In this document: one piece after another, positions 8,226 to 25,178 of the stretch
Layout of the letters: each line of letters begins with the position of its first letter
How positions within the stretch are numbered: position 1 is the first letter of the stretch
Source: Plantactinospora alkalitolerans
Lineage (GTDB): Bacteria > Actinomycetota > Actinomycetes > Mycobacteriales > Micromonosporaceae
Length of the DNA stretch: 37,488 nt
Assembly: GCF_015690345.1 (NCBI RefSeq)
Contig: NZ_JADPUN010000209.1
Coordinates: 1 to 37,488, forward strand
Direction: 5' to 3'
Program-made: the position numbers and the translations under genes
The notes under the pieces: generated by a model
Told to the model about the DNA's origin: nothing
Database searches by the model: none
What the model saw: only the letters and a program-made list of their open reading frames with translations

Positions 8226-9425
8226 ATGTCATGGCGTCCGGCCCGCGAACCGTGCCCGCGCCGGTTGGTTCCCGTCGAAACTTCCGGCGACATGATCCCG
8301 GCCGGACGGCAGTCGGACCTCGGCAGCTCTCCCGGGTTGCGTCCGCTCCGTGATCGCTCGGTCGCGCTGGTGCACGAGTGGTACGGCGCGACGGGCGGGT
8401 CGGAGGAGGTGTTCCGACGCATCGCCGACCTGGTGCCGCACGCCGAACGCTTCGTCCTGTGGAAGGACCGGAACGTCTCCGAGCCCGGCCTGCGGGAGTC
8501 CTGGCTGGCCCGGACCCCGCTGACCCGCAGCAAGGCGCTTGCCCTACCGCTGATGCCACTCGTCTGGCGCACGCTCACCCGCGAGCGCTACGACGTCGTC
8601 ATCTCGTCCAGCCACGCGTTCGCGCACACGGTTCGGCTGGGCCCACCAGAGCAGACCAGGTACCTCAGCTACGTGCACGCCCCGGCGCGTTACCTCTGGA
8701 GCCCGACGTTCGACGGCCGCGGTTCGAACCCGCTACTGGCTCCACCCCGGCGGCTCCTGCGGGCCGTGGACGTACGGCTCAGCCGCCACGTGCACGGTTA
8801 CGCCGCGAACTCACGAGAGGTCCAGAACCGGATCAGGCGCTACTGGGGTCGCGACGCCACTGTGATCAATCCGCCGGTCGACACGGACTACTTCGCCGCA
8901 GCGCCACCGAACGACCGGCGGCAGGCCCGCGACTACCTGCTCGGGGTCGGCCGGTGGATTCCGTACAAGAACTTCGACCTCGTCATCGCGATCGCCGAGG
9001 CGGCCGGGCTGCCGCTCGTGCTCGCCGGCTCCGGACCCGAGGAGGCGAATCTGCGCCGCCTAGCGGGCCGGGTCGGCGTGCCCGTCACGTTCGAGGTCAT
9101 GCCCGGCAAGGAGAGGTTGCGGCAGCTCTACTGGGGGGCGCGGGCGTTGCTGTTCCCGGTGCACGAGGACTTCGGCATCATCCCCGTCGAGGCCCAGGCG
9201 TGCGGTACTCCCGTGCTGGGACTGCGCCGGGGCGGCCTGCTGGAGACGGTGACCGACGGGGAGGCCGGCTTCCTCGTCGACTCGCTGGACCCGGCGGAGT
9301 TCGGCCGGCTCGTCCGGCGGCTTCCCGAGCTGACGCCGGAACGGATCCAGGACCACGCCGGCGTCTTTTCCAAGCAGGAGTTCGCGGCGAGGATGTCGGC
9401 GTGGATCGACCATGAGTCGAACTGA
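8226..9425 (+). CDS. GT4-family glycosyltransferase
   Basis: 399-residue GT-B fold enzyme. The N-terminal acceptor domain contains SVALVHEWYGATGGSEEVFRRIA (the Gly-rich loop typical of GT4) and YLSYVHAPARYLWSP. The C-terminal donor domain has YLLGVGRWIPYKNFDLVIAIAE, LVLAGSGPEEANLR and the E-x7-E region FPVHEDFGIIPVEAQACGTPVLGLRRGG. It should add a sugar to a lipid-linked intermediate at the cytosolic membrane face; donor and linkage are unknown. Start ATG 8226 has GGGAGAG about 11 nt upstream; ATG 8292 is possible. A TATCAT hexamer at 8169-8174 could be the -10 of the glycosyltransferase operon. This is the first gene of a five-gene run in which neighbours overlap or nearly touch. Confidence 0.88.
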   Translation: MSWRPAREPCPRRLVPVETSGDMIPAGRQSDLGSSPGLRPLRDRSVALVHEWYGATGGSEEVFRRIADLVPHAERFVLWKDRNVSEPGLRESWLARTPLTRSKALALPLMPLVWRTLTRERYDVVISSSHAFAHTVRLGPPEQTRYLSYVHAPARYLWSPTFDGRGSNPLLAPPRRLLRAVDVRLSRHVHGYAANSREVQNRIRRYWGRDATVINPPVDTDYFAAAPPNDRRQARDYLLGVGRWIPYKNFDLVIAIAEAAGLPLVLAGSGPEEANLRRLAGRVGVPVTFEVMPGKERLRQLYWGARALLFPVHEDFGIIPVEAQACGTPVLGLRRGGLLETVTDGEAGFLVDSLDPAEFGRLVRRLPELTPERIQDHAGVFSKQEFAARMSAWIDHESN

Positions 9426-10650
9426 CGGCGACAGCCCGGTGCCGGACCAGTTGCTCACCCCGGGCGAGGGTGGCCCGGTCGAGGCGTCGGCGATGACGGT
9501 GCTGCACGTCAGCCACACCGCCCAGCCGGGCGGCGCCGAACTCGCCCTCGTCCGGCTGCTCACCCAGCAGCGGCGGCACTGGCGGGCCCGGCTGTGCGCG
9601 CCGGGCAACGGCACCGCGTTCGACGGGTTGGCCGCGCACGGCGTCGGACTGGAGCGGAACCTGCCGGCGTTGCCGACCGGCGGCACCCGGGGCGGAAGCC
9701 TGCTGCTCGCGGCGCGTTACCTGCGTGCCCTGCAGGCCGGGGCCGGTGTCCTGGCGCGCAGCCGGCTGTTCCGGGACGCCGATCTGGTGCACGCGAACAC
9801 GGCCGCCGCGGCGATCTGCTCCGCGTTCGCCGACCGGGGCGGGGCGAAACCGTTGGTGGTGCACCTTCGTGACCTCGTCACCACCGACAGCCTGGGCCGG
9901 TTCGGCTTCGGGGCGTTCACCAGGATCGCGCTGGGGCGGGCCGACGGCGTGATCGCCAACTCGCGGACGACACTGACATCGGCCGAGCGGTGGCTGCGGC
10001 CCGGACTGCCCAGAATGGTGATCCAGAGCCCGGTCGGCATCGACCGTCGGGTGACGGCCCCCCGCCTCGGCGCCGCCGTACGGCGGATCGGGATGGTCGG
10101 GCGGCTGCAGCGGTGGAAGGGGCAGCACGTCTTCCTCCGGGCGTTCGCACTGGCCTTCCGGGGCACCGACGTGCGGGCCCGGATCGCCGGAGCACCACTG
10201 TTCGCCGAGACGGCCTACGAGACCGAGATCCGTCGCCTCGTCGCCGAATTAGGCATCGCCGACCAGGTGGACCTGCTCGGCCACGTCGACGACGTACCGG
10301 GATTCCTCGACTCGGTCGATATCCTGGTACACGCCTCGACCAGACCGGAACCGCTGGGACAGACCGTCATCCAGGGGCTGGCCCGGGCGCTGCCGATCGT
10401 CGCGACCGAGGGAGGCGGCCCGGGGGAGTGGATCCGGTCGGGCGTCAACGGCCTCCTCGTACCCCCGAACGATCCCGAGGCGCTCGGCGGGGCGCTGCTG
10501 AGGCTGGCGGACTCCGCAGAACTCCGGGCCGGGCTGGCGGCGGGCGCGGCGGCGACGCCGGGAATCCGCACCGACGAGGAGTGCCAGGCACACCACGCAG
10601 GGTTCTTCCGGGCAGTCTGGCAGGCGCGACGCGACGCGGGCGGGAAGTGA
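9412..10650 (+). CDS. GT4-family glycosyltransferase
   Basis: 412-residue GT-B glycosyltransferase. It shows TVLHVSHTAQPGGAELALVRLL at the start of the Rossmann fold, ADLVHANTAAAAICSA, the donor-domain opener RIGMVGRLQRWKGQHVFLRAF, and TRPEPLGQTVIQGLARALPIVATEGGGPGEWI carrying the GT4 E-x7-E-like site (Gln-for-Glu variants occur). Its ATG lies inside the previous gene (14-bp overlap), which implies translational coupling. An internal ATG at 9494 starts exactly at the conserved fold and is an alternative. The role is presumably repeat-unit assembly with its neighbours. Confidence 0.85.
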   Translation: MSRTDGDSPVPDQLLTPGEGGPVEASAMTVLHVSHTAQPGGAELALVRLLTQQRRHWRARLCAPGNGTAFDGLAAHGVGLERNLPALPTGGTRGGSLLLAARYLRALQAGAGVLARSRLFRDADLVHANTAAAAICSAFADRGGAKPLVVHLRDLVTTDSLGRFGFGAFTRIALGRADGVIANSRTTLTSAERWLRPGLPRMVIQSPVGIDRRVTAPRLGAAVRRIGMVGRLQRWKGQHVFLRAFALAFRGTDVRARIAGAPLFAETAYETEIRRLVAELGIADQVDLLGHVDDVPGFLDSVDILVHASTRPEPLGQTVIQGLARALPIVATEGGGPGEWIRSGVNGLLVPPNDPEALGGALLRLADSAELRAGLAAGAAATPGIRTDEECQAHHAGFFRAVWQARRDAGGK

Positions 10651-10655
10651 GCCAG

Positions 10656-11861
10656 ATGACGGAGGGCCGAGCTGACCTGAGGGTCGCGTACATCCTGCTC
10701 CGCTCGCCGAGCTACAGCGAGACGTTCATCTCGTCGGAGATCCGGGCGGTCCGGGCCGCCGGCGCCACCGTCGAGGTTTTCGTCGCCCGCCCCGGCGGCC
10801 GGCGTGCCGAACTCGCCCGGGTCGTCCGTACGCTGTTCCGTCATCCGGTCCGACTGCTCGCCCAGGTACGCACGCTCGGCGGCACGGACGTCCGGCGGGC
10901 GCTGCTGGCCGGCAGCCACGCGCTCGCGCTCGCCGAGGAGGTCGCATCCTTCGCGCCGGACGTCGTGCACGCGCACTTCGTCAACCTGCCGACCGCGGTC
11001 GCGGCACTCGTGGCGAGAGAGCTCGGTAAGCCCGCGACCGCCGTCGCGCACGCCGCCGACTTCCTGCTGGACCGGAACCCGGTCGGGCTGGCCCGGCGGC
11101 TCGGTCTGCTCCGCCACCTGTTCGTCATCTCGGCCGCGACCGTCCGGCAGCTCGAGGCCCGAGGGGTGGCCATGTCGACGATCCCGCACGGCATCGTCCG
11201 GGCCGCGTTCGACGGTGAACTGCCCGAGCCGGCGCCGCCCGGTCCGGCCGGCCCGGTACGACTGGTCACGGTCGCCCGCCTGGTCGAGAAGAAGGGTGTC
11301 GGCACCAGCGTCGACGCGGTGGCCCGGCTCGCGGCCACGGGTCTCGACGTCCACTACGACGTCTACGGCGACGGACCACTGCGGGCCACCCTGGAGCGCC
11401 GGGCGCAGGAGTGTGGCGTCTCCGCCGCCGTGACGTTCCACGGCGCGGTGTCGCACGCGGTGGCGACCGAGGCGCTGGCCACCGCGGACGTCGCGGTGCT
11501 GGCCTGTACGCGCGGCACCGACGGGGACCTCGACGGCATTCCGGTCTTCCTGATGGAGGCAGCCAGCCGGCAGGTGCCGGTGGTGACCACCGCGGTCTCC
11601 GGCATCCCCGAGCTCGTCGAGGAGGGCGGTGGCTGGCTGGTCCCGCCCGACGACCCGGCGGCGCTGGCCGAGGCGGTGACGCAGGTGGTGCAGAACCGGG
11701 CGGAGGCGCGGCGCCGCGTGGACAGGCTCGTCGCCCGGCTGCGCACGGAGTTCCCTCCCGAGCGGCAGGCCGAACGGCTACTCGACACCTGGCACCGACT
11801 GGTCGATCCGGCCCGCCGGCAGCGGGCGGTCGACGACGCTGTCCCCCCGGTGAGGCGCTAG
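10656..11861 (+). CDS. GT4-family glycosyltransferase (WcaL/AmsK-like)
   Basis: 401-residue enzyme. LRVAYILLRSPSYSETFISSEIRAV matches the opening of exopolysaccharide transferases related to WcaL/AmsK. DVVHAHFVNLPTAVAALVARELGKPATAVAHAADF follows, then the donor domain RLVTVARLVEKKGVGTSVDAVARL, YGDGPLR, and GIPVFLMEAASRQVPVVTTAVSGIPELVEEGGGWLVPPDDP with the catalytic Glu pattern. ATG 10656 is chosen (GGGAAG 8 nt upstream); an in-frame GTG at 10647 overlapping the previous stop is an alternative. The next gene begins five bases after its stop. Substrate is unknown. Confidence 0.87.
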   Translation: MTEGRADLRVAYILLRSPSYSETFISSEIRAVRAAGATVEVFVARPGGRRAELARVVRTLFRHPVRLLAQVRTLGGTDVRRALLAGSHALALAEEVASFAPDVVHAHFVNLPTAVAALVARELGKPATAVAHAADFLLDRNPVGLARRLGLLRHLFVISAATVRQLEARGVAMSTIPHGIVRAAFDGELPEPAPPGPAGPVRLVTVARLVEKKGVGTSVDAVARLAATGLDVHYDVYGDGPLRATLERRAQECGVSAAVTFHGAVSHAVATEALATADVAVLACTRGTDGDLDGIPVFLMEAASRQVPVVTTAVSGIPELVEEGGGWLVPPDDPAALAEAVTQVVQNRAEARRRVDRLVARLRTEFPPERQAERLLDTWHRLVDPARRQRAVDDAVPPVRR

Positions 11862-11865
11862 ACAG

Positions 11866-13068
11866 ATGGGACTGACCGTCGTCTCCACGTTCTTTCCGCT
11901 GCCCCCGGACCGGGGCGACCCGGTCCGGGTACTCATGATGCTTCGGGCGATATCACGGATCCAGCCCTTCACCCTCGCGGTGGTGCGGCGGCCCGACACC
12001 ACCGGCGACCAGCTCGACCAGTTGGGCGGGATGCTGCCGGAGGTGGAGGTTCGGGACTATCCGGCGACGCCGTACCGACTGGACCGGCTGGGGCCGTTCG
12101 GTCGCTATCCGGAGGCGATGGCCGACGGACTGCCACCGTGGATCCGGAGCCGTTACAGCCAGCCGTTGCACGACGACCTGCGGACCCGTGACGGCGCGGG
12201 GATCGCCATCGGGGAGGCGGCAGCGGTGTATTTCCGGGGCACCCGGCTGCGCTGGCACTGGGACAAGGCCAACGTACTGGCCGGGAGTACCCGGGGGGAC
12301 ATCGCTGAGGCCGAGGACCTCGCACACCAGCTCCGGGCGCGGTACCTGGCCGGGATCTCGACCCGGTTCGAGTCGCGGGCGCTGTCGGAGTGCGAGACGG
12401 TCTCGGTGACCAGTGCCGAGGAAGCCACCCGGCTCGCCGAGCACCATCGCCGGAGGGCGGACTTCACGTTGCCGAGCTGCGTACCGATGCCGGTCGGACA
12501 TGTTCCGCGACCGCAGGAGCGCCACCTGGTGTGGCTCAGCAGCTTCTCGTACCGCGCCAACCTGGCCGGGCTGCGGCACTTTCTCGACCGGGGATGGCCG
12601 TCACTGCGCCGTGCGGGCTTCCGGCTGACCCTGGTCGGATCGGGCCTCACCGATCGGGTGCGGGCCAGTCTCGCCGCGATCGACGGTGTCGACGTGCCGG
12701 GCTACGTGGCGGATCTCCGTCCGGTGCTCGCGCGGGCCAGGGCCGCCGTGGTTCCGGTCTGGAGCGGCGCCGGGGTCAAGCTGAAGACCCTCACCCTGCT
12801 GGCCCACTCCGTCCCGGTCTTCACTACCCCGGTCGGCGCCGAGGGTGTTCCGGCGACGGAAGCCGTCCGGCTGGCGGACACCCCGGAGGCACTGGCGGCG
12901 GAGATCCTCGGGTCGTCGGCGGCCGAGTTGGACGCGATGGTCGCCGCCGGGGCTCGCCTGATCGAGGGCCAGTTCTCCGAGGACCGGTTCGCCGAGCGTC
13001 TGGTCGACGCGCTCGCCAGGCACGGCTATCTCGACGTCACCGGCACCTCGTTCCGCCAAGGAATCTGA
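11866..13068 (+). CDS. GT4-like glycosyltransferase
   Basis: 400-residue protein starting MGLTVVSTFFPLPPDRGDPVRVLMMLRAI, the usual N-terminal pattern of GT4-like enzymes. The donor half contains LVWLSSFSYRANLAGLRHFLDRGWP, FRLTLVGSGL, and VVPVWSGAGVKLKTLTLLAHSVPVFTTPVGAEGV, which is the G-x-K-hinge seen in this subgroup in place of the classic E-x7-E. It is more divergent than the three transferases before it. Its TGA overlaps the ATG of the flippase-polymerase gene by one base (TGATG), so the pair is translationally coupled. Confidence 0.82.
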   Translation: MGLTVVSTFFPLPPDRGDPVRVLMMLRAISRIQPFTLAVVRRPDTTGDQLDQLGGMLPEVEVRDYPATPYRLDRLGPFGRYPEAMADGLPPWIRSRYSQPLHDDLRTRDGAGIAIGEAAAVYFRGTRLRWHWDKANVLAGSTRGDIAEAEDLAHQLRARYLAGISTRFESRALSECETVSVTSAEEATRLAEHHRRRADFTLPSCVPMPVGHVPRPQERHLVWLSSFSYRANLAGLRHFLDRGWPSLRRAGFRLTLVGSGLTDRVRASLAAIDGVDVPGYVADLRPVLARARAAVVPVWSGAGVKLKTLTLLAHSVPVFTTPVGAEGVPATEAVRLADTPEALAAEILGSSAAELDAMVAAGARLIEGQFSEDRFAERLVDALARHGYLDVTGTSFRQGI

Positions 13069-15845
13069 TGTCGACGAGGAAACTGGTCTCCGCCTCCTTC
13101 GCGAACCTGCTCATCCCGATCAGCGGACTTCTCGTCAGCCCGTTCCTCTCCCGGGAACTGGGACCCGACGGTCGTGGTCTCTACGCCGCGCTCACCCTGC
13201 CGATCGTCGTCTGTGGCTGGATCGGCACGTACGGGCTACAGGACGCGCTCAGTTACCACCTGCGCACCGGCAGGCTGTCGAGACGGACCGCCGCCAAGGT
13301 CAGTCTGGTGGCCTCGGTGCCTCTCGGACTGCTCGGGATCGGGCTGCTCGCCGTGCTCGGGCGCTTCGTCTTTCCCGGCGGCGACGGGCACTACGGGCAG
13401 TTCCTTCTGCTGTCCCTGCTCGCACCGCTGCACATTCTCGCCAACCTGCTCATCGGCGCGCTGACCGGCGCCTCCGACATTCGCGGCGTCAACCTGGTGA
13501 AGGTCGTGCCCGCACTGCTCAGAACGGCACTTGTCGTCTTCGCCTGCCTGACGCTGGACCTGGGCGCCTACTGGGCCGGCCTGCTCTTCGTGGCCTCGGT
13601 GAGCGGTGGACTCGTCCTCGGACTCGTCCGGCTCCGCTCGGCACCGGAGCGGGTCGATTCGCCGGGGGAGGGCACCGGAGATCCGCCCGAGCCGCCGGAC
13701 GGGACCATACCCGCCCGCTCACTGCTGGCGTACTCGCTGACCTGCCTGCCCGGTGTCCTGGCAGCGATCTCCAGTGCGCGGCTCGACCAGATCGTCGGGC
13801 TGCCGGTCATCGGGGCGCGGGAACTCGGCTACTACGCGGTGGCGGTGAGTGTCGCGGAGATACCGATGGTGATCGCGACGGCGGCCCGGACGGTGCTGAT
13901 GGGCCGGCCGGGCAGTGACGACCGGCGTCGGGGCAGTGCCGTCGCCCGGCTCGCCGTGCTGGCGTCGACCGTCGCGAGCGGGGTACTGGCGGCGATCGCG
14001 GGCGTTGCCGTGCCGTGGGTGTTCGGTGCCGCGTTCGCCCCGGCCGTCGTGCCCACGGTCATCCTCTGCGCGGCGACGACGCTCTACACCAGCATGGTGA
14101 TTTTCAGCGCGGTCCTGCTGTCGAACGGCAGGGCGGCCTGGTCCTCCGGCGCACTGGTCGCCGGTTCCGTCCTCGGCATCGTGTTGCTGTTCCTGCTCGC
14201 GCCGATGGGTGCGGTGGGGGCGGCGATCGCCAGCCTGGCGGGTTACGGAGTGTCGGTGGTGGCCGCCGGCGCGATGGTGAGGAGAGTGCCGGAGTTGCCT
14301 TCCCTGCGGGAACTGACGGTGCCGTACCGGGAGGATCTGCGTTCCTTCGGCGGGTTGGCGGCCGGGTTCGTCGGCCGCTTCCGGAGGCGGGCCACGGCCG
14401 ATCCGGGTCCGGCCGATCCGGGTCGGGCCGATTCTGGTCGGGCCGGTGCCAGCCTGGCGGACCCGGCCGGGCCACCCGGGCCCGCGACCTCGCTCCGGTG
14501 GTCGGTCGGCACCCTTGCGCACCGGATCGACATCGGCACCTTCGGGACGGGCCTGCTGTTCGTCCTCGCCTGGCTCCGGTTGATGGTGCCGATGCTGATC
14601 CAGCTGTTCGACTCGGGGCGCCCGGAGTTCAACTCGAGACAGGACCTCGTCCCCCCGGTCAGCGACCTCCTCGGCAACGCCCTCAGCCTGGCGTTCATCC
14701 TGGTGGCGGCCGTTCTCGCGGCGCACGGCGGCTACCGGCACCGACCGGCGCGGCTGTGGTCGCTCGCCGCCGTCCTCGCCCCCTTCGTCGCGATCGAGGC
14801 GGCCGGGCTCCTCAACCACCAGCGGCCCGGCCTGGTGTCGCTGGCACTTCCACTCGCCGCGGTCGCGATCTGGCTCCAACCGGTCCGACGCGAGGTCCTG
14901 GGGGTGATCGGCATCCTGGGCGCCGCCACCGCAACCGGATCGATCCTGCTGGCGCTGGTCCGTCCCGACCTCGCCCTCATCTCCGGGACGGCGGCGGGAG
15001 ACAAGAGCGGACTTCTCGGCGGCCTGCTCGCCGGTCCCTTCCTGCACTCCAACGTGCTCGGCATCGCACTGGCCCTGAGCATTCCGTTCGTGTTCTGCGT
15101 CGGGCATCCGCTGATCCGCCGCGGCGGGCTGGTCGTCCTGCTCTTCGCGTTGTTCTGGACCGGTTCGCGCAGCAGTCAGCTGGCGGTCGCCGCCGTCCTC
15201 TTCACATACCTGCTGATCCGGCTGTTCCCGACCCGGATCTGGATGCTGTGGACCATGATGACGGCCGGAGTCGCGGCCGTCGTGTTCGTGCCGCTGCTCA
15301 CCACGGACCCGGAGGCGTTCACCCGCCGTGGCCGGATCTGGCACACGCTGCTGGACCAGTGGGCCGAGCATCCCCTGCTGGGTTACGGTCCCCGGTACTT
15401 CCAGCGCGAACCGGACCTGGCGGTGGAGCTGGGAGGTGAGTTCACCCACGCGCACAACGCCATGGTCCAGTTTCTCGTCGTCGGCGGCCTGGTCACCACG
15501 GCGGTGGTCGCTCTTCTTCTCGTGCTCACCTGGCGGCGCTCGATGGCCCTGGCGACGGCCGGCTTCCCGGCCGCGGCGCTCTTCCTGGTCGCGTTCCTGT
15601 ACGTCTCGTGGCTGGAGGCGTCGCACGTGCCGACCACACTGGCCGGGCACGCGACCTGGCTTCCGCTGATGGTGATCGCGCGGCTCGGTCTGCCGGCCGG
15701 CGGTGCACCGCCCGCCCCGGCCGGGGCGGACCGGGGCGGCCGGTCACGGGCCGGTGCCGCCGGCTGGCTGAACGGGACGGCGGGGGCGCTGCAACAGCGG
15801 CTGACGAAGGGGTCGCCTCAGAAGACGACTGTGTCGCGGATGTAG
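13068..15845 (+). CDS. Fused Wzx-type flippase and Wzy/O-antigen-ligase-type polymerase
   Basis: A single uninterrupted frame encodes 925 residues. Residues about 1-440 look like a polysaccharide flippase of the MOP/MVF superfamily (MSTRKLVSASFANLLIPISGLLVSPFLSRELG, then repeated paired helices and GYYAVAVSVAEIPMVI). Residues about 443-485 are a Pro/Ala/Asp/Gly linker that includes three 15-bp DNA repeats (14397-14441). Residues about 495-890 are a second polytopic module with O-antigen-ligase/polymerase features: a FWTGSRSSQLAVAA segment, a loop containing RIWHTLLDQWAEHPLLGYGP, and THAHNAMVQFLVVGG. Normally these are two proteins: Wzx moves the lipid-linked unit outward and Wzy polymerises it. 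The fusion would couple both steps. The C-terminus overlaps the convergent downstream gene by 28 bp. Confidence 0.85.
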   Translation: MSTRKLVSASFANLLIPISGLLVSPFLSRELGPDGRGLYAALTLPIVVCGWIGTYGLQDALSYHLRTGRLSRRTAAKVSLVASVPLGLLGIGLLAVLGRFVFPGGDGHYGQFLLLSLLAPLHILANLLIGALTGASDIRGVNLVKVVPALLRTALVVFACLTLDLGAYWAGLLFVASVSGGLVLGLVRLRSAPERVDSPGEGTGDPPEPPDGTIPARSLLAYSLTCLPGVLAAISSARLDQIVGLPVIGARELGYYAVAVSVAEIPMVIATAARTVLMGRPGSDDRRRGSAVARLAVLASTVASGVLAAIAGVAVPWVFGAAFAPAVVPTVILCAATTLYTSMVIFSAVLLSNGRAAWSSGALVAGSVLGIVLLFLLAPMGAVGAAIASLAGYGVSVVAAGAMVRRVPELPSLRELTVPYREDLRSFGGLAAGFVGRFRRRATADPGPADPGRADSGRAGASLADPAGPPGPATSLRWSVGTLAHRIDIGTFGTGLLFVLAWLRLMVPMLIQLFDSGRPEFNSRQDLVPPVSDLLGNALSLAFILVAAVLAAHGGYRHRPARLWSLAAVLAPFVAIEAAGLLNHQRPGLVSLALPLAAVAIWLQPVRREVLGVIGILGAATATGSILLALVRPDLALISGTAAGDKSGLLGGLLAGPFLHSNVLGIALALSIPFVFCVGHPLIRRGGLVVLLFALFWTGSRSSQLAVAAVLFTYLLIRLFPTRIWMLWTMMTAGVAAVVFVPLLTTDPEAFTRRGRIWHTLLDQWAEHPLLGYGPRYFQREPDLAVELGGEFTHAHNAMVQFLVVGGLVTTAVVALLLVLTWRRSMALATAGFPAAALFLVAFLYVSWLEASHVPTTLAGHATWLPLMVIARLGLPAGGAPPAPAGADRGGRSRAGAAGWLNGTAGALQQRLTKGSPQKTTVSRM
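14397..14441 (+). repeat. Three 15-bp tandem repeats in the fusion linker
   Basis: Unit GCCGATCCGGGTCCG at 14397-14411, repeated with one change at 14412-14426 and with further changes at 14427-14441. In frame it encodes five-residue units such as ADPGP/ADPGR/ADSGR in the hydrophilic linker between flippase and polymerase halves. Slippage at such repeats could vary linker length without breaking the frame. Confidence 0.85.
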
Positions 15846-19105: not shown

Positions 19106-20623
19106 ATGCCGCCGGCCAAGCAACCGCAGATCTGGTTCCTCACCGGAAGCCAGCACCTGTACGGCCCGGAGACCCTCGACCAGGTCGCGAGTCAGTCGCA
19201 GCAGATCATGCGCACGCTCACCGGCTCCGGTCGGGTCGTCGCGGAGATCGTCTGGAAGCCCGTACTCACCGAGGCCTCGGCGATCCGCGCGGTCCTGCTG
19301 GAGGCGAACGCCGACCCGGCCTGCCTCGGTGTGATCGCCTGGATGCACACCTTCTCGCCGGCCAAGATGTGGATCAGCGGGCTCGACGCGCTCCGTAAGC
19401 CGCTGCTGCACCTGCACACCCAGCTCAACGAGGCGCTGCCCTGGGAGTCCATCGACATGGACTTCATGAATCTCAACCAGGCCGCGCACGGCGACCGGGA
19501 GTTCGGCTTCATCCAGACCCGGCTCGGGCTGGCCCGCAAGACCATCGCCGGGCACGCCTCCGATCCGACCGTGGTGTCCCGGATCGACGAGTGGGCCCGG
19601 GCCGCGCTCGGCTACGACCACCTGCGCAATCTCCGGCTGGCACGGTTCGGCGACAACATGAGGGACGTCGCCGTCACCGAGGGTGACAAGGTGGAGGCGG
19701 AACTCCGGTTCGGCGTCTCGGTGAACACCTACGGCGTCAACGACCTGGTCGACGTCGTGGACCGGGTCGCCGACGTGGAGATCGACCGGCTCGTCGCCGA
19801 GTACGCCGACACCTACCGACTCGCTCCGGAACTGGCCAAGGACGGCGACCGGCACGACTCGCTGCGCTACGCGGCCCGGATCGAGGCCGGCCTGCGGCAG
19901 TTCCTCACCGACGGCGGATTCGGGGCGTTCACCACCAACTTCCAGGACCTCGGCGGGCTTCGCCAACTACCCGGACTCGCCGTGCAACGGTTGATGGCCG
20001 ACGGCTACGGCTTCGGCGGCGAGGGCGACTGGAAGACCTCGACCCTGTTGGCGGCGGTGAAGGCGATGAGCGTCGGTACCGGCCGGGGTACCTCGTTCAT
20101 GGAGGACTACACGTACCACTTCGGGCCCGGCGAACCGAAGATCCTCGGCGCGCACATGCTGGAGGTCTGCCCCACCATCGCGGGCGGGCAGCCCTCGTGC
20201 GAGATCCATCCGCTCGGTATCGGCGACCGCGAGGACCCGGTCCGGCTCGTCTTCGACGCCACCTCCGGTCCCGCGGTGGTGATCGGTCTGGCCGACCTCG
20301 GCGAACGGTTCCGTCTCGTCGCCAACGAGATCGAGGTCGTGCCGCCGGACGAGCCGATGCCGAAACTGCCGGTCGCGCGCGCCGTATGGAAGCCGGCGCC
20401 GTCGCTGACCACGTCGGCCGAGTCCTGGCTGACCGCCGGAGGCCCGCACCACACCGTGCTGACCCAGGCGGTCGGTTCGGCGACCCTGCGGGACTTCGCC
20501 GACATGCTGCACACCGAGTTGGTACTCATCGACAAGAACACCACGACGGTGGACTTCCGGGACCGGTTGCGCTGGAACCAGGCGTACCACCGGCTCGCCC
20601 AGGGGCTGCCCGGCCGGAACTGA
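19106..20623 (+). CDS. araA: L-arabinose isomerase
   Basis: 505-residue enzyme converting L-arabinose to L-ribulose, the first step of bacterial arabinose use. The sequence begins [24 protein letters not shown]. Catalytic and Mn-binding residues sit where expected: E306 in GEGDWKT, E333 in [12 protein letters not shown]350 in [10 protein letters not shown]449 in GGPHHTV (E. coli numbering E306, E333, H350, H450). ATG 19106 is chosen over GTG 19100 because AGGAGAGG (19093-19100) is then spaced 5 nt away. It is preceded by a LacI-like operator and followed after about 195 bp by a sugar ABC importer on the same strand. Kinase and epimerase genes (araB, araD) are not adjacent. Confidence 0.97.
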
Positions 20624-20708
20624 CCCGACCGGGGCGGGGCCGGGCATGCCGACTCCATCGATCCATGGTGGAGTGACGATGGTCCGACGTACGTCACCGG
20701 CCGGCCCC

Positions 20709-20759
20709 GCGGGTCGCGTACCGCGCGACCCGCACCCGTTTCAGACCCAGCGGGTCGCG
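20709..20759 (+). promoter_or_regulatory. Alternative hairpins upstream of the sugar-binding protein gene
   Basis: GCGGGTCGCG occurs at 20709-20718 and again at 20750-20759. Its exact complement CGCGACCCGC lies between them at 20724-20733, so an RNA could form either an upstream hairpin (10-bp stem, 5-nt loop) or a downstream one (10-bp stem, 16-nt loop), but not both. It lies 60-110 nt upstream of ATG 20819. This could end readthrough from araA or tune the leader of the transporter operon. No T-tract follows either hairpin. Confidence 0.45.
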
Positions 20760-20818
20760 GCGCAAGCCCGTGTCCCGCAGCGGAGACCCGCACGCAGTAC
20801 CAGGAATTGGAGGAGCAC

Positions 20819-21943
20819 ATGAAATTTGCCCGGCTCGCCGCGGCGGCTGGCGCCATCACGCTCGCCGCCGCCCTCACCGCGTGTGGCTCGAGCGCCAAGA
20901 CGGGCGACGACGACAGCGGCACCGGTGACACCGCCGGTGCGCTCGTCGGCGTCACCATGCCGACGAAGTCCTCCGAGCGGTGGATCCACGACGGCAACAA
21001 CGTCAAGGCGGGGCTGGAGAAGCTCGGCTACCAGGTCGACCTCCAGTACGCCGAGAACGACATCCCGTCCCAGGTGAACCAGATCGAGAACCAGATCACC
21101 AAGGGTGCCAAGGTCCTCATCATCGCATCGATCGACGGCACCGCGATCACCAGCCAGTTGCAGAGCGCGGCGGACAACAAGATTCCGGTCATCGCGTACG
21201 ACCGCCTGATCCGGAACAGCCCGAACGTCGACTACTACGCCACCTTCGACAACTTCAAGGTCGGCGTCCAGCAGGCGACCTCGCTGCTGGTCGGGCTGAA
21301 GTTGAAGAAGGACGACGGCACCGACGGCGAGGCGAAGGGCCCGTTCAACGTCGAGCTGTTCGCCGGTTCGCCGGACGACAACAACGCCACCTTCTTCTTC
21401 AACGGTGCGATGTCGGTCCTTCAGCCGTACATCGACAAGGGCACCCTCGTGGTCAAGAGCGGGCAGAAGGACTTCAAGACCGTCGCCATCCTGCGCTGGG
21501 AGGCGGCTGCCGCGCAGCGCCGGATGGAGGACCTGCTGACCAAGACGTACGGCAGCGCGAAGGTCGACGGCGTGCTGTCCCCGTACGACGGACTGTCGAT
21601 CGGCATCCTGTCGGCGCTGAAGAGCAACGGCTACGGCACCGGCGGTCAGCCGTACCCGGTGGTGACCGGTCAGGACGCCGAGGTCGCCTCGGTGAAGTCC
21701 ATCATCGCGGGCGAGCAGTACTCGACCATCTACAAGGACACCCGGCAGCTCGCCGAGGTCGCGGTCAAGATGGCCGACGCGGTGCTCAAGGGCAGCAAGC
21801 CCGAGGTGAACAACGAGAAGGACTACGAGAACGGCAAGAAGGTCGTACCGTCCTTCCTGCTGCAGCCGGTGATCGTCAACAAGGCCAACTACAAGGAGTT
21901 GTTGCTCGACACCGGCTACTACAAGGAGGACCAGCTCAAGTAG
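20819..21943 (+). CDS. chvE: Monosaccharide ABC importer, substrate-binding lipoprotein (ChvE-like)
   Basis: 374-residue exported lipoprotein. The signal [22 protein letters not shown] ends in a lipobox with Cys22. The mature part matches periplasmic-binding protein type I of the ChvE/multiple-sugar class: [123 protein letters not shown] and a late [15 protein letters not shown]. It captures aldoses outside the membrane and delivers them to the ATPase/permease encoded downstream. Start ATG 20819 has GGAGGAG 4-5 nt upstream. Position behind araA suggests arabinose or a related pentose/hexose as ligand; this is inference. Confidence 0.93.
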
Positions 21944-21954
21944 TCGCTCCTTCG

Positions 21955-21987
21955 GCGGCGGTCGCGCGGGTTCCGTGCGACCGCCGC
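21955..21987 (+). repeat. Strong intergenic hairpin between binding-protein and ATPase genes
   Basis: GCGGCGGTCGC (21955-21965) pairs perfectly with GCGACCGCCGC (21977-21987). Four further pairs inside, one of them G-U, leave a 3-nt loop, giving a stem of about 15 bp. There is no T-tract. In other binding-protein-dependent ABC operons, hairpins at this position protect the upstream mRNA and partly terminate, giving more binding protein than ATPase and permease. Confidence 0.6.
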
Positions 21988-22027
21988 AGCACCACCGGCC
22001 ACCCCTCTCGCACGACGGAGGCTTCCG

Positions 22028-23623
22028 TTGGCAATGACCGACGACATTCTGCGGATGCATGACATCACCAAGACCTTCCCCGGGGTACGGGCTCTCCAGG
22101 AGGTCAACCTCTCGGTGGGCCGAGGGGAGATCCACGCGATCTGCGGCGAGAACGGCGCGGGAAAGTCGACCCTGATGAAGGTGCTGTCCGGGGTCTACCC
22201 GCACGGCTCGTACTCGGGGGAGATCTCCTTCGACGGCGAGGCGTGCGAGTTCTCCGACATCCGGGACAGCGAGCGGCGCGGGATCGTCATCATCCACCAG
22301 GAGTTGGCGCTCTGCCCCCAGCTCTCGATCGCCGAGAACATCTTCCTCGGCAACGAGCGGGCGGCCCGGGGCCTGATCGACTGGAACCGGACCAACCACG
22401 AGGCCGCCGAACTGCTCGCCCGGGTCGGCCTGCGGGAGAACCCGGTGACCACGGTCAGCGACATCGGGGTCGGCAAGCAGCAGCTCGTCGAGATCGCCAA
22501 GGCGTTGTCGAAGCGGGTCCGGCTGCTGATTCTCGACGAGCCGACGGCGGCGCTCAACGACCGGGACTCCGAACACCTGCTCGACCTGCTGCGCGGCCTG
22601 CGCGACCAGGGCATCACCTGTGTGATCATCTCGCACAAGCTGAACGAGATCGCGGCGATCGCCGACCGGATCAGCATCCTGCGGGACGGCCGGATGATCG
22701 AGACATTGGACATGAGGACCGACGAGGTGACCGAGGACCGGATCATCTCCGGCATGGTCGGCCGGGACCTCGACCACCGTTTCCCGCCCCGGGAGCCCCG
22801 GATCGGCACGGAGATCCTGCGGATCGAGGACTGGACGGTGCACAGCCCGACCCAGCACGGCCGGGTGGTGGTGTCGAACGCCAACCTCACGCTGCGGCGC
22901 GGCGAGATCGTCGGGCTCGCCGGGTTGATGGGCGCCGGGCGTACCGAGCTGGCGATGAGCGTCTTCGGCCGTGCCTACGGCACGAACATCACCGGCCGGC
23001 TGGTCAAGGACGGTACGGAGATCAGCGTACGGTCCGTTCGGGACGCCATCCGGCACGGCATCGCGTACGCCACGGAGGACCGTAAGCGGTACGGCCTCAA
23101 CCTCATCGAGGACATCAAACGCAACATCTCGGCGGCGGGACTGGGCAAGCTGGCCCGGCGCGGCTGGGTCGACGACAACCGCGAGTACCAGGTCGCCGAC
23201 GAGTTCCGTACCAGCATGAACATCAAGGCGCCCAGCGTGCTGAGTACGACCGGCAAGCTCAGCGGTGGTAACCAGCAGAAGGTCGTACTGTCGAAGTGGA
23301 TCTTCACGAACCCCGACGTGCTGATCCTCGACGAGCCGACCCGCGGTATCGACGTCGGCGCCAAGTACGAGATCTACTCGATCATCAACCGGCTCGCCGA
23401 CGAGGGCAAGGCGGTCCTGGTCATCTCGTCGGAACTGCCCGAACTGCTGGGCCTGTGCGACCGCATCTACACCCTCTCCGCCGGCCGGGTCACCGCCGAG
23501 GTGGCGCGGGAGGACGCGACCCAGGAGGGTCTGATGCGCTACATGACCAAGGGTCAGACCGACACCACCAACGGCCGGAGCACGGGGTCCGGCCGGAGCG
23601 ACACGACGAATGAACAGGAGTAG
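22028..23623 (+). CDS. mmsA: Monosaccharide ABC importer, ATP-binding protein
   Basis: 531-residue cytosolic ATPase with two fused ABC domains, the normal form for monosaccharide importers (XylG/GguA class). The N-domain has Walker [10 protein letters not shown], signature-like [15 protein letters not shown] and Walker [12 protein letters not shown]. The C-domain has the degenerate Walker [11 protein letters not shown] typical of this class, signature [15 protein letters not shown], and Walker [16 protein letters not shown] 22028 is preferred because GGAGG ends 6 nt upstream; ATG 22034 ([17 protein letters not shown]) would have a 12-nt gap but gives family-like length. It is the second gene of the importer operon, and its stop is 6 bp before the permease ATG. 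Confidence 0.93.
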
Positions 23624-23629
23624 ACCTCG

Positions 23630-24892
23630 ATGAGCGCCACCGCACCCACCAACGCCGATCTCGCGGTGAGCGGGCCTGGTCTCGGCGATCCGTCGCCATC
23701 GGCCGGCGGACCCGGTCGCCGGTTGTCGGTGAACCTGCGGCAGAGCGGCATCTACGTCGCCTTCGCGTTGATCGTTCTGCTGTTCTCGGTGCTCACCGAC
23801 GGTGCTCTGCTGCAACCGCAGAACATCTCAAACATCATCGTGCAGAACTCGTACATCCTGATCCTCGCGATCGGGATGATCCTGATCATCATCGCCGGGC
23901 ACATCGACCTGTCCGCCGGCTCGGTGGTGGCGGTCACCGGCGCCGTCGCCGCGGTGCTGATGGTCGAACACGACGTACCGTGGCCGCTGGCCCTGCTGAT
24001 CACCCTTGTCGTCGGCGGACTCATCGGCGCCTGGCAGGGCTTCTGGATCGCCTACTTCGGAATTCCGGCCTTCATCGTGACCCTGGCCGGCATGCTGCTG
24101 TTCCGGGCGCTCACCCTGACCGTGCTCGGCAACCAGGGCATCGGGCCGTTCCCGGACCCGGTCCGCACCCTGGCCAACGGCTTCACCGAGGGATATCTGG
24201 GCAACATCGGACTCGGGCCGCTGGGCGGCGCGGACCTGTTCAGCCTGCTGGTCGGGATCGCCGCGGTGGTCGGCTTCGCCGCGGTGCAGTGGCGCGGTCG
24301 GATGGCCCGGCTCGGCTACCACCAGACGGTCGAACCGCTGCCGCTGTTCGTGCTCAAGATCGTTGTGGCCGCCGTCGTGGTGATGACGGTGATCGTGCAG
24401 CTTGCCCGGTTCAAGAACCTGCCCTGGGTCCTGGTGCTGCTCGCGGCACTGATCCTGGCGTACTCGCTGGTCACCAGCCGTGCCGTGTTCGGCCGGCAGA
24501 TCTACGCGGTCGGTGGCAACCTACAGGCCGCGACCCTGAGCGGGGTCAAGGTCAAGTCGGTGATCTTCTGGATCTTCGTCAACATGGGTGTGCTGGCCGC
24601 GCTCGCCGGAGTCATCTTCGCCGGCCGGCTCAACCAGGCCGGACCGACCGCCGGCGGCTCCTTCGAACTCGACGCCATCGCCGCCGCCTTCATCGGCGGG
24701 GCCGCCGTACAGGGCGGCGTGGGCAAGGTGGTCGGTGCGATCACCGGCGGCCTGATCATGGGTGTGATCAACAACGGCATGTCGCTGATCGGTGCGCCGA
24801 GCGAGCAGGTGATGCTGGTCAAGGGTGTCGTGCTGCTGGCGGCGGTGGCCTTCGACGTGTGGACCAAGCGCCGCGCCGGCGCCTCCCGGTAA
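23630..24892 (+). CDS. mmsB: Monosaccharide ABC importer, permease
   Basis: 420-residue polytopic permease of the branched-chain-amino-acid/ribose type (BPD_transp_2). It has a hydrophilic N-terminus of about 35 residues, then roughly ten helices. Characteristic stretches are ILAIGMILIIIAGHIDLSAGSVVAVTGAVAA, WIAYFGIPAFIVTLAGMLLFRAL, FGRQIYAVGGNLQAATLSGVKV (the coupling loop to the ATPase) and AIAAAFIGGAAVQGGVGKVVGAITGGLIMGVINNGM. ATG 23630 has AGGAG 9 nt upstream. It is the last gene of the importer operon, followed by a strong terminator at 25016-25056. Confidence 0.93.
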   Translation: MSATAPTNADLAVSGPGLGDPSPSAGGPGRRLSVNLRQSGIYVAFALIVLLFSVLTDGALLQPQNISNIIVQNSYILILAIGMILIIIAGHIDLSAGSVVAVTGAVAAVLMVEHDVPWPLALLITLVVGGLIGAWQGFWIAYFGIPAFIVTLAGMLLFRALTLTVLGNQGIGPFPDPVRTLANGFTEGYLGNIGLGPLGGADLFSLLVGIAAVVGFAAVQWRGRMARLGYHQTVEPLPLFVLKIVVAAVVVMTVIVQLARFKNLPWVLVLLAALILAYSLVTSRAVFGRQIYAVGGNLQAATLSGVKVKSVIFWIFVNMGVLAALAGVIFAGRLNQAGPTAGGSFELDAIAAAFIGGAAVQGGVGKVVGAITGGLIMGVINNGMSLIGAPSEQVMLVKGVVLLAAVAFDVWTKRRAGASR

Positions 24893-24911
24893 CGGCGCCC
24901 GAGCCTGCGGG

Positions 24912-24954
24912 GGTAGGGCGCCCCGACCTCCGGTAGGGGCGCCCCCGGACCTCC
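24912..24954 (+). repeat. Short direct repeat after the permease gene
   Basis: GGTAGGGCGCCCCGACCTCC (24912-24931) is followed at once by a 23-bp near copy (24932-24954) differing by inserted G/C bases, then the start of a third unit (GGTAAAGG). The second unit contains the 10-bp palindrome GGGGCGCCCC (24936-24945). No coding role is seen. Confidence 0.6.
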
Positions 24955-25015
24955 GGTAAAGGTGTCGGCCGGGCGGCGATCCGCCTGACTTCCGGAGCCC
25001 AGGGGCATACGGTTG

Positions 25016-25056
25016 AAACCCGGACGAACCAGCGGGGTCGGGTTCGTCCGGGTTTT
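25016..25056 (+). terminator. Rho-independent terminator of the sugar importer operon
   Basis: AAACCCGGACGAACC (25016-25030) and GGTTCGTCCGGGTTT (25041-25055) make a perfect 15-bp stem with a 10-nt loop. The 3' arm ends in GGGTTTT, a short T-run. It lies about 125 bp past the permease stop. This is the best intrinsic terminator in the window. Confidence 0.85.
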
Positions 25057-25096
25057 CCCGTCCGACGGCCCCGCCCGAGAGCCGGGAGGAGGGCCG

Positions 25097-25177
25097 ATGA
25101 CCGGTCCGGGACCTGACCGGGCAAGCGCGGAACCCCGCTCGCCGGCCCGGACGCCCGCCCGCCGGCAGCCCGGCTGA
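25097..25177 (+). CDS. 26-codon leader ORF coupled to the membrane-protein gene
   Basis: ATG 25097 is preceded by GGGAGGAGGG (25084-25093), one of the strongest RBS-like sequences in the window. The frame runs MTGPGPDRASAEPRSPARTP and six more residues to TGA 25175-25177. One base later is the ATG of the next gene, which has no Shine-Dalgarno of its own. The peptide is Pro/Arg-rich with no recognisable domain. Its likely job is to load ribosomes for the downstream gene by termination-reinitiation. It could also be chance, since high-GC DNA is rich in open frames. Confidence 0.45.
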   Translation: MTGPGPDRASAEPRSPARTPARRQPG

Positions 25178-25178
25178 G

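Follow-up and report, generated by a model that had tools for sequence, protein, structure and literature searches.

A hairpin between the gene of a sugar-binding protein and the gene of its ATPase raises the question of what such a structure does in the middle of an operon. Binding proteins tend to be required in excess of membrane pumps, and an intergenic stem is one possible way of achieving this. The case considered here lies in a 37,488-nucleotide stretch of DNA from Plantactinospora alkalitolerans (contig NZ_JADPUN010000209.1, hereafter the window), taken from an assembly of 9.2 Mb in 441 contigs. A preliminary description of this DNA proposed that the hairpin could stabilize the upstream mRNA and give the binding protein higher expression than the membrane components. 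Comparison with other genomes makes this differential-expression reading plausible: a 3'-end hairpin without a U-tract probably favours chvE mRNA over gguAB mRNA, whether it protects the message from decay, terminates part of the transcription, or does both.

The hairpin is located between the binding-protein gene, chvE, and the co-directional ATPase gene, gguA, with araA further upstream, that is, inside a binding-protein operon (Table 1). The preliminary description was right to place it in this gap, although the gap length of 84 bp given there presumes that gguA starts at a TTG codon. An in-frame start 6 nt ahead of the gguA ATG is present in one genome of the genus (the sister genome G004) and absent in three others (G003, G006, and G001); as the TTG has no counterpart in these three, the ATG is the likelier start, and the gap then measures 90 nt.

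Table 1. Features of the chvE-gguA locus (positions in the window).
Feature	Position	Strand	Basis
araA, L-arabinose isomerase, upstream gene	19,106-20,623	+	NCBIfam NF002795, 789 bits (cut-off 622)
chvE, sugar-binding protein (SBP) of importer	20,825-21,943	+	NCBIfam NF040907 (ChvE), 557.5 bits (cut-off 460)
Hairpin	arms 21,955-21,969 and 21,973-21,987; loop 21,970-21,972 (GTT)	+	folding and sequence
8 nt 3' of the stem, no T, hence no U-tract	21,988-21,995	+	sequence
gguA, ATPase	22,034-23,623 (ATG preferred over TTG at 22,028)	+	NCBIfam NF040905 (GguA), 878.3 bits (cut-off 810)
gguB, permease, 6 nt past gguA	23,630-24,892	+	NCBIfam NF040906 (GguB), 519.5 bits (cut-off 450)

Other structures and genes surround the junction. 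A second hairpin, with 11 pairs and a 3-nt loop, sits at 20,702-20,738 between araA and chvE, so that stems flank chvE on either side. Five of six other genomes compared within the genus have an araA-chvE gap of at least 40 nt, and each of these gaps folds into some hairpin, the sequence differing from case to case and the energy ranging from -18.9 to -38.1 kcal/mol. On the 3' side of gguB, the gap at 24,893-25,178 contains a 15-pair helix near 25,016, possibly the operon's own end. An open reading frame of 1024 amino acids on the minus strand (20,741-23,815), opposite chvE and gguA, probably just shadows the coding strand, and a codon-usage caller chooses the plus-strand genes. Elsewhere in the window, four glycosyltransferase genes (Glycos_transf_1 / Glyco_trans_1_4) and the gene of an O-antigen-ligase-like Wzy_C protein stand in a row at 8337-15,845, likely a polysaccharide cluster.

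The hairpin itself was described with exact coordinates, and folding confirms the reported 11-bp perfect stem, extendable to 15 with a 3-nt loop. Its 15-nt arms form 15 pairs, of which the outer 11 are perfect, the 12th is a G-U pair, and the 13th to 15th are again perfect. Eleven nucleotides separate the stem from the stop codon of chvE, and the stem ends 44 nt past this stop. The minimum free energy is -32.8 kcal/mol at 37 °C. The longest stacked helix of the gap thus counts 15 pairs; among 2000 dinucleotide shuffles of the 84-nt gap, helices of at least 11 pairs were obtained in 27, of at least 13 in two, and of at least 15 in none. For the 93-nt stretch at 21,941-22,033, the folding z-score is -3.3, with none of 200 shuffles equally low. 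The energy of the hairpin alone is a weaker sign, as equally low values arise in 3 of 100 shuffled versions of the 90-nt gap. Together with the G-U bias of its relatives (see below), the helix length indicates a stable stem-loop on the sense RNA, beyond chance. No Rfam family matched the window at its gathering score. A canonical intrinsic terminator is ruled out by the eight T-free positions that follow the stem, and a terminator search reported no site here.

How unusual such a stem is depends on what other gaps contain. The background for the genus consisted of 400 kb of the sister genome (20 stretches) plus the window, with gaps of 40-300 nt between genes predicted by a home-made codon-usage caller; its 101 co-directional gaps include the chvE gaps of both genomes. 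Helices of at least 11 pairs are found in 23 of these 101 gaps, in 18 of 38 convergent gaps, and in 3 of 41 divergent ones, compared with 25 of 1087 coding 84-mers (sister genome alone). At 15 pairs or more, the counts are 10/101 (two of the ten being the chvE-gguA hairpin itself, in the window and in the sister genome), 11/38, 0/41, and 2/1087 (again, coding 84-mers of the sister genome alone). Energies of -32.8 kcal/mol or lower occur in 15 of 90 co-directional gaps (40-250 nt), 19 of 37 convergent gaps, 1 of 32 divergent gaps, and 8 of 286 coding 84-mers. With 11-pair helices in so many co-directional and convergent gaps, the hairpin's kind is therefore ordinary in the genus; equally strong hairpins follow many other genes, which counts against the favoured 3'-end reading. 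The frequencies by gap type indicate that such stems mark gene ends here, and the chvE-gguA stem is, therefore, an end-of-gene stem within an operon.

Other binding-protein genes of the sister genome were compared with the same background. Of 52 matches to PF01547, 30 had loci, from which three without a next gene, one with an opposite-strand neighbour, and 12 with gaps below 40 nt were removed. Among the 14 left, all followed by a same-strand gene at least 40 nt away, eight have a helix of 11 or more pairs, against the 23/101 of the background (p = 0.02), an enrichment in the expected direction but of modest size. The PF13407 paralogues (21 of 30 loci) are uncounted, because the 1.5-kb flanks cut the next gene and several 'next gene' calls are artefacts.

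Hairpins recur at the same junction in diverse bacteria. A genome set, in which 49 of 61 genomes matched, yielded 30 loci, and the 24 best-scoring were folded. Three lack the ATPase gene and one has a 2-nt gap; all 20 remaining gaps fold into a hairpin, with energies from -20.9 to -48.7 kcal/mol. In 15 of the 20, no more than 5 of 100 shuffles match this energy or go below it, while the other five are unremarkable by energy, which counts against reading the hairpin as a 3' end. A named collection contributed the best 80 of 586 loci; in 79 of them the next gene is recognizable as that of the ATPase, the exception being L092, at the end of its contig. Among these 79, the chvE-gguA gap is at least 40 nt long in 56 and shorter in 23, and the short gaps also count against the 3'-end reading. 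A helix of 11 or more pairs is present in 46 of the 56 long gaps versus 27 of 114 other co-directional gaps of the same loci (Fisher p = 3.9e-13, a nominal value because the case loci are related to one another), in a comparison where control genes come from a home-made codon-usage caller, case gaps end at a start picked by its distance from the Walker A motif and control gaps at called starts, and cases are GC-richer (median 0.69 vs. 0.63) and shorter (90.5 vs. 135.5 nt). Convergent gaps of these loci contain such a helix in 19 of 30 cases and divergent gaps in 1 of 29. By these frequencies, chvE-gguA gaps resemble gene ends. Helices of 10 or more pairs start at a median of 11 nt past the chvE stop. 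An earlier measure, based on the apical stem, misses stems with an apical mismatch and was given up in favour of the longest helix of the minimum-free-energy structure. It points in the same direction, with 11 or more pairs in 34 of 49 chvE gaps versus 17 of 114 other co-directional gaps (sum of three GC groups); of the 14 chvE gaps that scored below 10, nine contain hairpins of lower energy than -35 kcal/mol.

A 10-pair helix is absent in 8 of the 56 long gaps (L043, L048, L070, L084, L085, L086, L087, and L095), which is counted against the 3'-end reading; in L048, L070, and L095, an interrupted stem still forms a hairpin of lower energy than -31 kcal/mol. Gaps below 40 nt include those of six Amycolatopsis, two Rhodococcus, and four of seven Streptomyces loci, as well as single loci of Nonomuraea and Actinoplanes, genera whose other members have long gaps. 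Six of the seven Streptomyces junctions (L081, L085, L087, L090, L096, and L110) have gaps of 17-47 nt, four of which were too short and were left unfolded, and two of which fold weakly (-6.8 and -9.5 kcal/mol). Long gaps with strong stems are present in Streptomyces sp. ISL-66 (L077) and a Kitasatospora (L068). When the hairpin label is mapped onto a quick protein tree of 80 chvE rows, 13 changes are required; well-supported branches force at least seven of these, and likewise at least five changes of the 'short gap' label.

Between genera, the stems have no evident common sequence. Within the genus, six of seven genomes were aligned (G005, with a different stem in its gap, was omitted), and 21 of 22 stem-base columns are invariant versus 21 of 63 other ungapped columns, a count outside the stem that is lowered by the uneven placement of the stop codons of two rows in this alignment (A2). 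In the stem base, 98.5% of cells pair and 10 of the 11 pairs never vary. No compensatory change on both sides of the stem base was found among the six genomes; this is counted against the 3'-end reading, covariation being uninformative at this invariance. A G-U pair on the plus-strand RNA corresponds to an A-C mismatch on the RNA of the other strand. A strand-symmetric search covered 62 stems, after removal of three duplicate loci, of loci without the ATPase gene, and of gaps below 40 nt. Their non-Watson-Crick positions are 27 G-U, 7 A-C, and 12 others. Counted by genus (hand-collected), the vote is 16 for G-U and 2 for A-C, with one tie, or 15 to 2 if Micromonospora sp. HM5-17 (L045), counted apart, is merged with Plantactinospora; its apparent counterpart in the genome set, G005, is placed there in the window's genus. 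The excess of G-U over A-C thus suggests that what is preserved is the RNA of the chvE strand. The sequence that follows the stems varies with base composition: at loci of up to 63% GC, all 14 stems have three or more U in the next 8 nt (mean 4.5 vs. 1.8 before the stem), whereas above 63% GC only 10 of 48 do (mean 1.4 vs. 1.25), the window having none.

These comparisons suggest that hairpins of unrelated sequence, placed at one junction, serve the ChvE family's need for excess binding protein in Actinomycetota, Pseudomonadota, and Bacillota, mostly without a U-tract where the host is rich in GC. Tentatively, the ChvE-GguAB family may have two interchangeable layouts, between which lineages would have switched repeatedly: either a gap of about 40-240 nt that contains a rapidly changing 3'-end hairpin on the sense strand, or little or no gap and no such hairpin. 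As part of the same joint proposal, the hairpins would be U-tailed in lower-GC hosts and mostly U-poor in actinobacteria. If true, this would provide a natural series for asking whether hairpins without U-tracts terminate transcription in actinobacteria. The window hairpin is one ordinary instance, and the interest lies mainly in the recurrence across phyla and in the split between gapped and gapless junctions.

In the favoured reading, the palindrome would work at the RNA level, as a hairpin formed in the chvE transcript directly past the chvE stop, and would set the 3' end of a chvE-only (or araA-chvE) mRNA, with gguAB carried by the remaining read-through mRNA. This end could form in two ways, which may also combine: RNase cleavage downstream, after which a 3'-5' exonuclease stalls at the stem, and partial termination of the U-less, I-shaped type. 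Binding protein would then be made in excess of ATPase and permease. We infer 3'-end formation, mRNA excess, and protein excess at this hairpin from the comparison. The proposal of more binding-protein than transporter mRNA agrees with the position, the strand, the lack of a U-tract, and the recurrence across phyla; stabilization, as the preliminary description proposed, termination, or both may be at work, the two being inseparable by sequence.

Each route may also be considered alone. Protection from decay only, in which transcription is unimpeded and, once gguAB has been cleaved, 3'-5' exonucleases are blocked by the stem, as in the malE-malF mechanism, has a likelihood a little short of even. 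It accords with the absence of a U-tract after the stem and with Escherichia coli, where, in a passage of PMC5927463, 26 of 34 operon pairs with a stabilized first gene have a 3' end just past a stable hairpin lacking a U-tract, but the U-rich tails at the equivalent position in lower-GC relatives (14/14) suggest termination there. Partial internal termination only, in which a U-less I-shaped hairpin halts a fraction of the RNA polymerases, is a possible explanation, though clearly on the doubtful side. A long GC-rich stem less than 50 nt from the stop belongs to the class termed HS-U-lack in Streptomyces (passage of PMC8269248) or I-shaped in mycobacteria (passage of PMC12288462), similar stems stand at convergent gene ends of the genus (18/38 with 11 or more pairs), and stem-loops after clostridial binding-protein genes stopped 20.7-96.1% of transcripts in a reporter, according to a passage of PMC9045158. 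Nevertheless, no U is found in the 8 nt past the stem, and a title cited by PMC12288462 says that the mycobacterial polymerase requires a U-tract. A passage of that paper has U-less hairpins terminating, and its reference list contains titles on both sides; since passage and cited title conflict, the need of mycobacterial RNA polymerase for a U-tract is disputed, which is counted against the 3'-end reading.

It is improbable that the stem mainly uncouples gguA translation from that of chvE. Loci without a stem mostly have gguA adjoining chvE or close after it, and gap and hairpin do co-occur (a helix of 10 or more pairs in 48 of 56 long gaps, 23 of 79 gaps being below 40 nt), but a plain spacer would uncouple the genes without any stem, and both the stem length and the U-tails resemble those of gene ends. 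The inverted repeat is near-perfect, as a DNA palindrome (operator) or a dispersed repeat would be, yet the 27 to 7 bias of G-U over A-C in such stems and the lack of sequence conservation between genera make it very improbable that it is anything other than an RNA element. A search of the genome also speaks against a REP-like dispersed repeat: among the matches listed (40 of 151 candidates scored), the only full-length one is the site itself, and the others span at most 49 nt, with E-values of at least 0.0165.

The anatomy of a hairpin after the binding-protein gene of an operon is already known from malE-malF and from Clostridia. Literature searches on chvE-gguA terminators, araFGH, and malE-malF, the latter two very broad, returned nothing on the chvE-gguA hairpin by title or abstract opening among the matches listed, and a passage of an Agrobacterium ncRNA paper (PMC3738593) mentions ChvE as background only. 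In E. coli malEFG and four other ABC operons, the stabilized gene is always that of the binding protein, as stated in a passage of PMC5927463. Like malE-malF and the other ABC operons reshaped by decay in that passage, the window has a hairpin between binding-protein and translocator genes, without a U-tract. Unlike malE-malF, the hairpin is single and non-repeated, and belongs to another transporter family in a high-GC actinobacterium. With the clostridial stem-loops (passage of PMC9045158), it shares the equivalent operon position, a long GC-rich stem, and a poor U-tract, the window having no U at all in the 8 nt past the stem. The precedents are experimental: stabilized binding-protein mRNA at malE-malF (PMC5927463), reporter-tested clostridial examples (PMC9045158), and mapped transcript 3' ends for HS-U-lack in Streptomyces (PMC8269248); the 3' end at the window hairpin is a predicted one.

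Hairpins without U-tracts at actinobacterial 3' ends have been described in passages of PMC8269248 and PMC12288462, the former requiring an energy below -23 kcal/mol and fewer than three U in the next 8 nt, and the latter a distance of at most 50 bp from the stop. The window hairpin falls within these limits by its energy (calculated at 37 °C, while PMC8269248 folds 40 nt at 30 °C), its lack of U, and the distance of its stem end from the stop. It is thus like I-shaped and HS-U-lack ends in having a strong stem close past the stop with fewer than three U in the next 8 nt, and differs from them in that a co-directional operon gene follows. A comparable layout is offered by E. coli araF-araG, xylF-xylG, and mglB-mglA, where gaps of 60-77 nt contain a 9-11-pair helix past the binding-protein stop (in araF-araG, an 11-pair hairpin with a 3-nt loop at the equivalent site), although these stems are shorter, weaker, and of different sequence.
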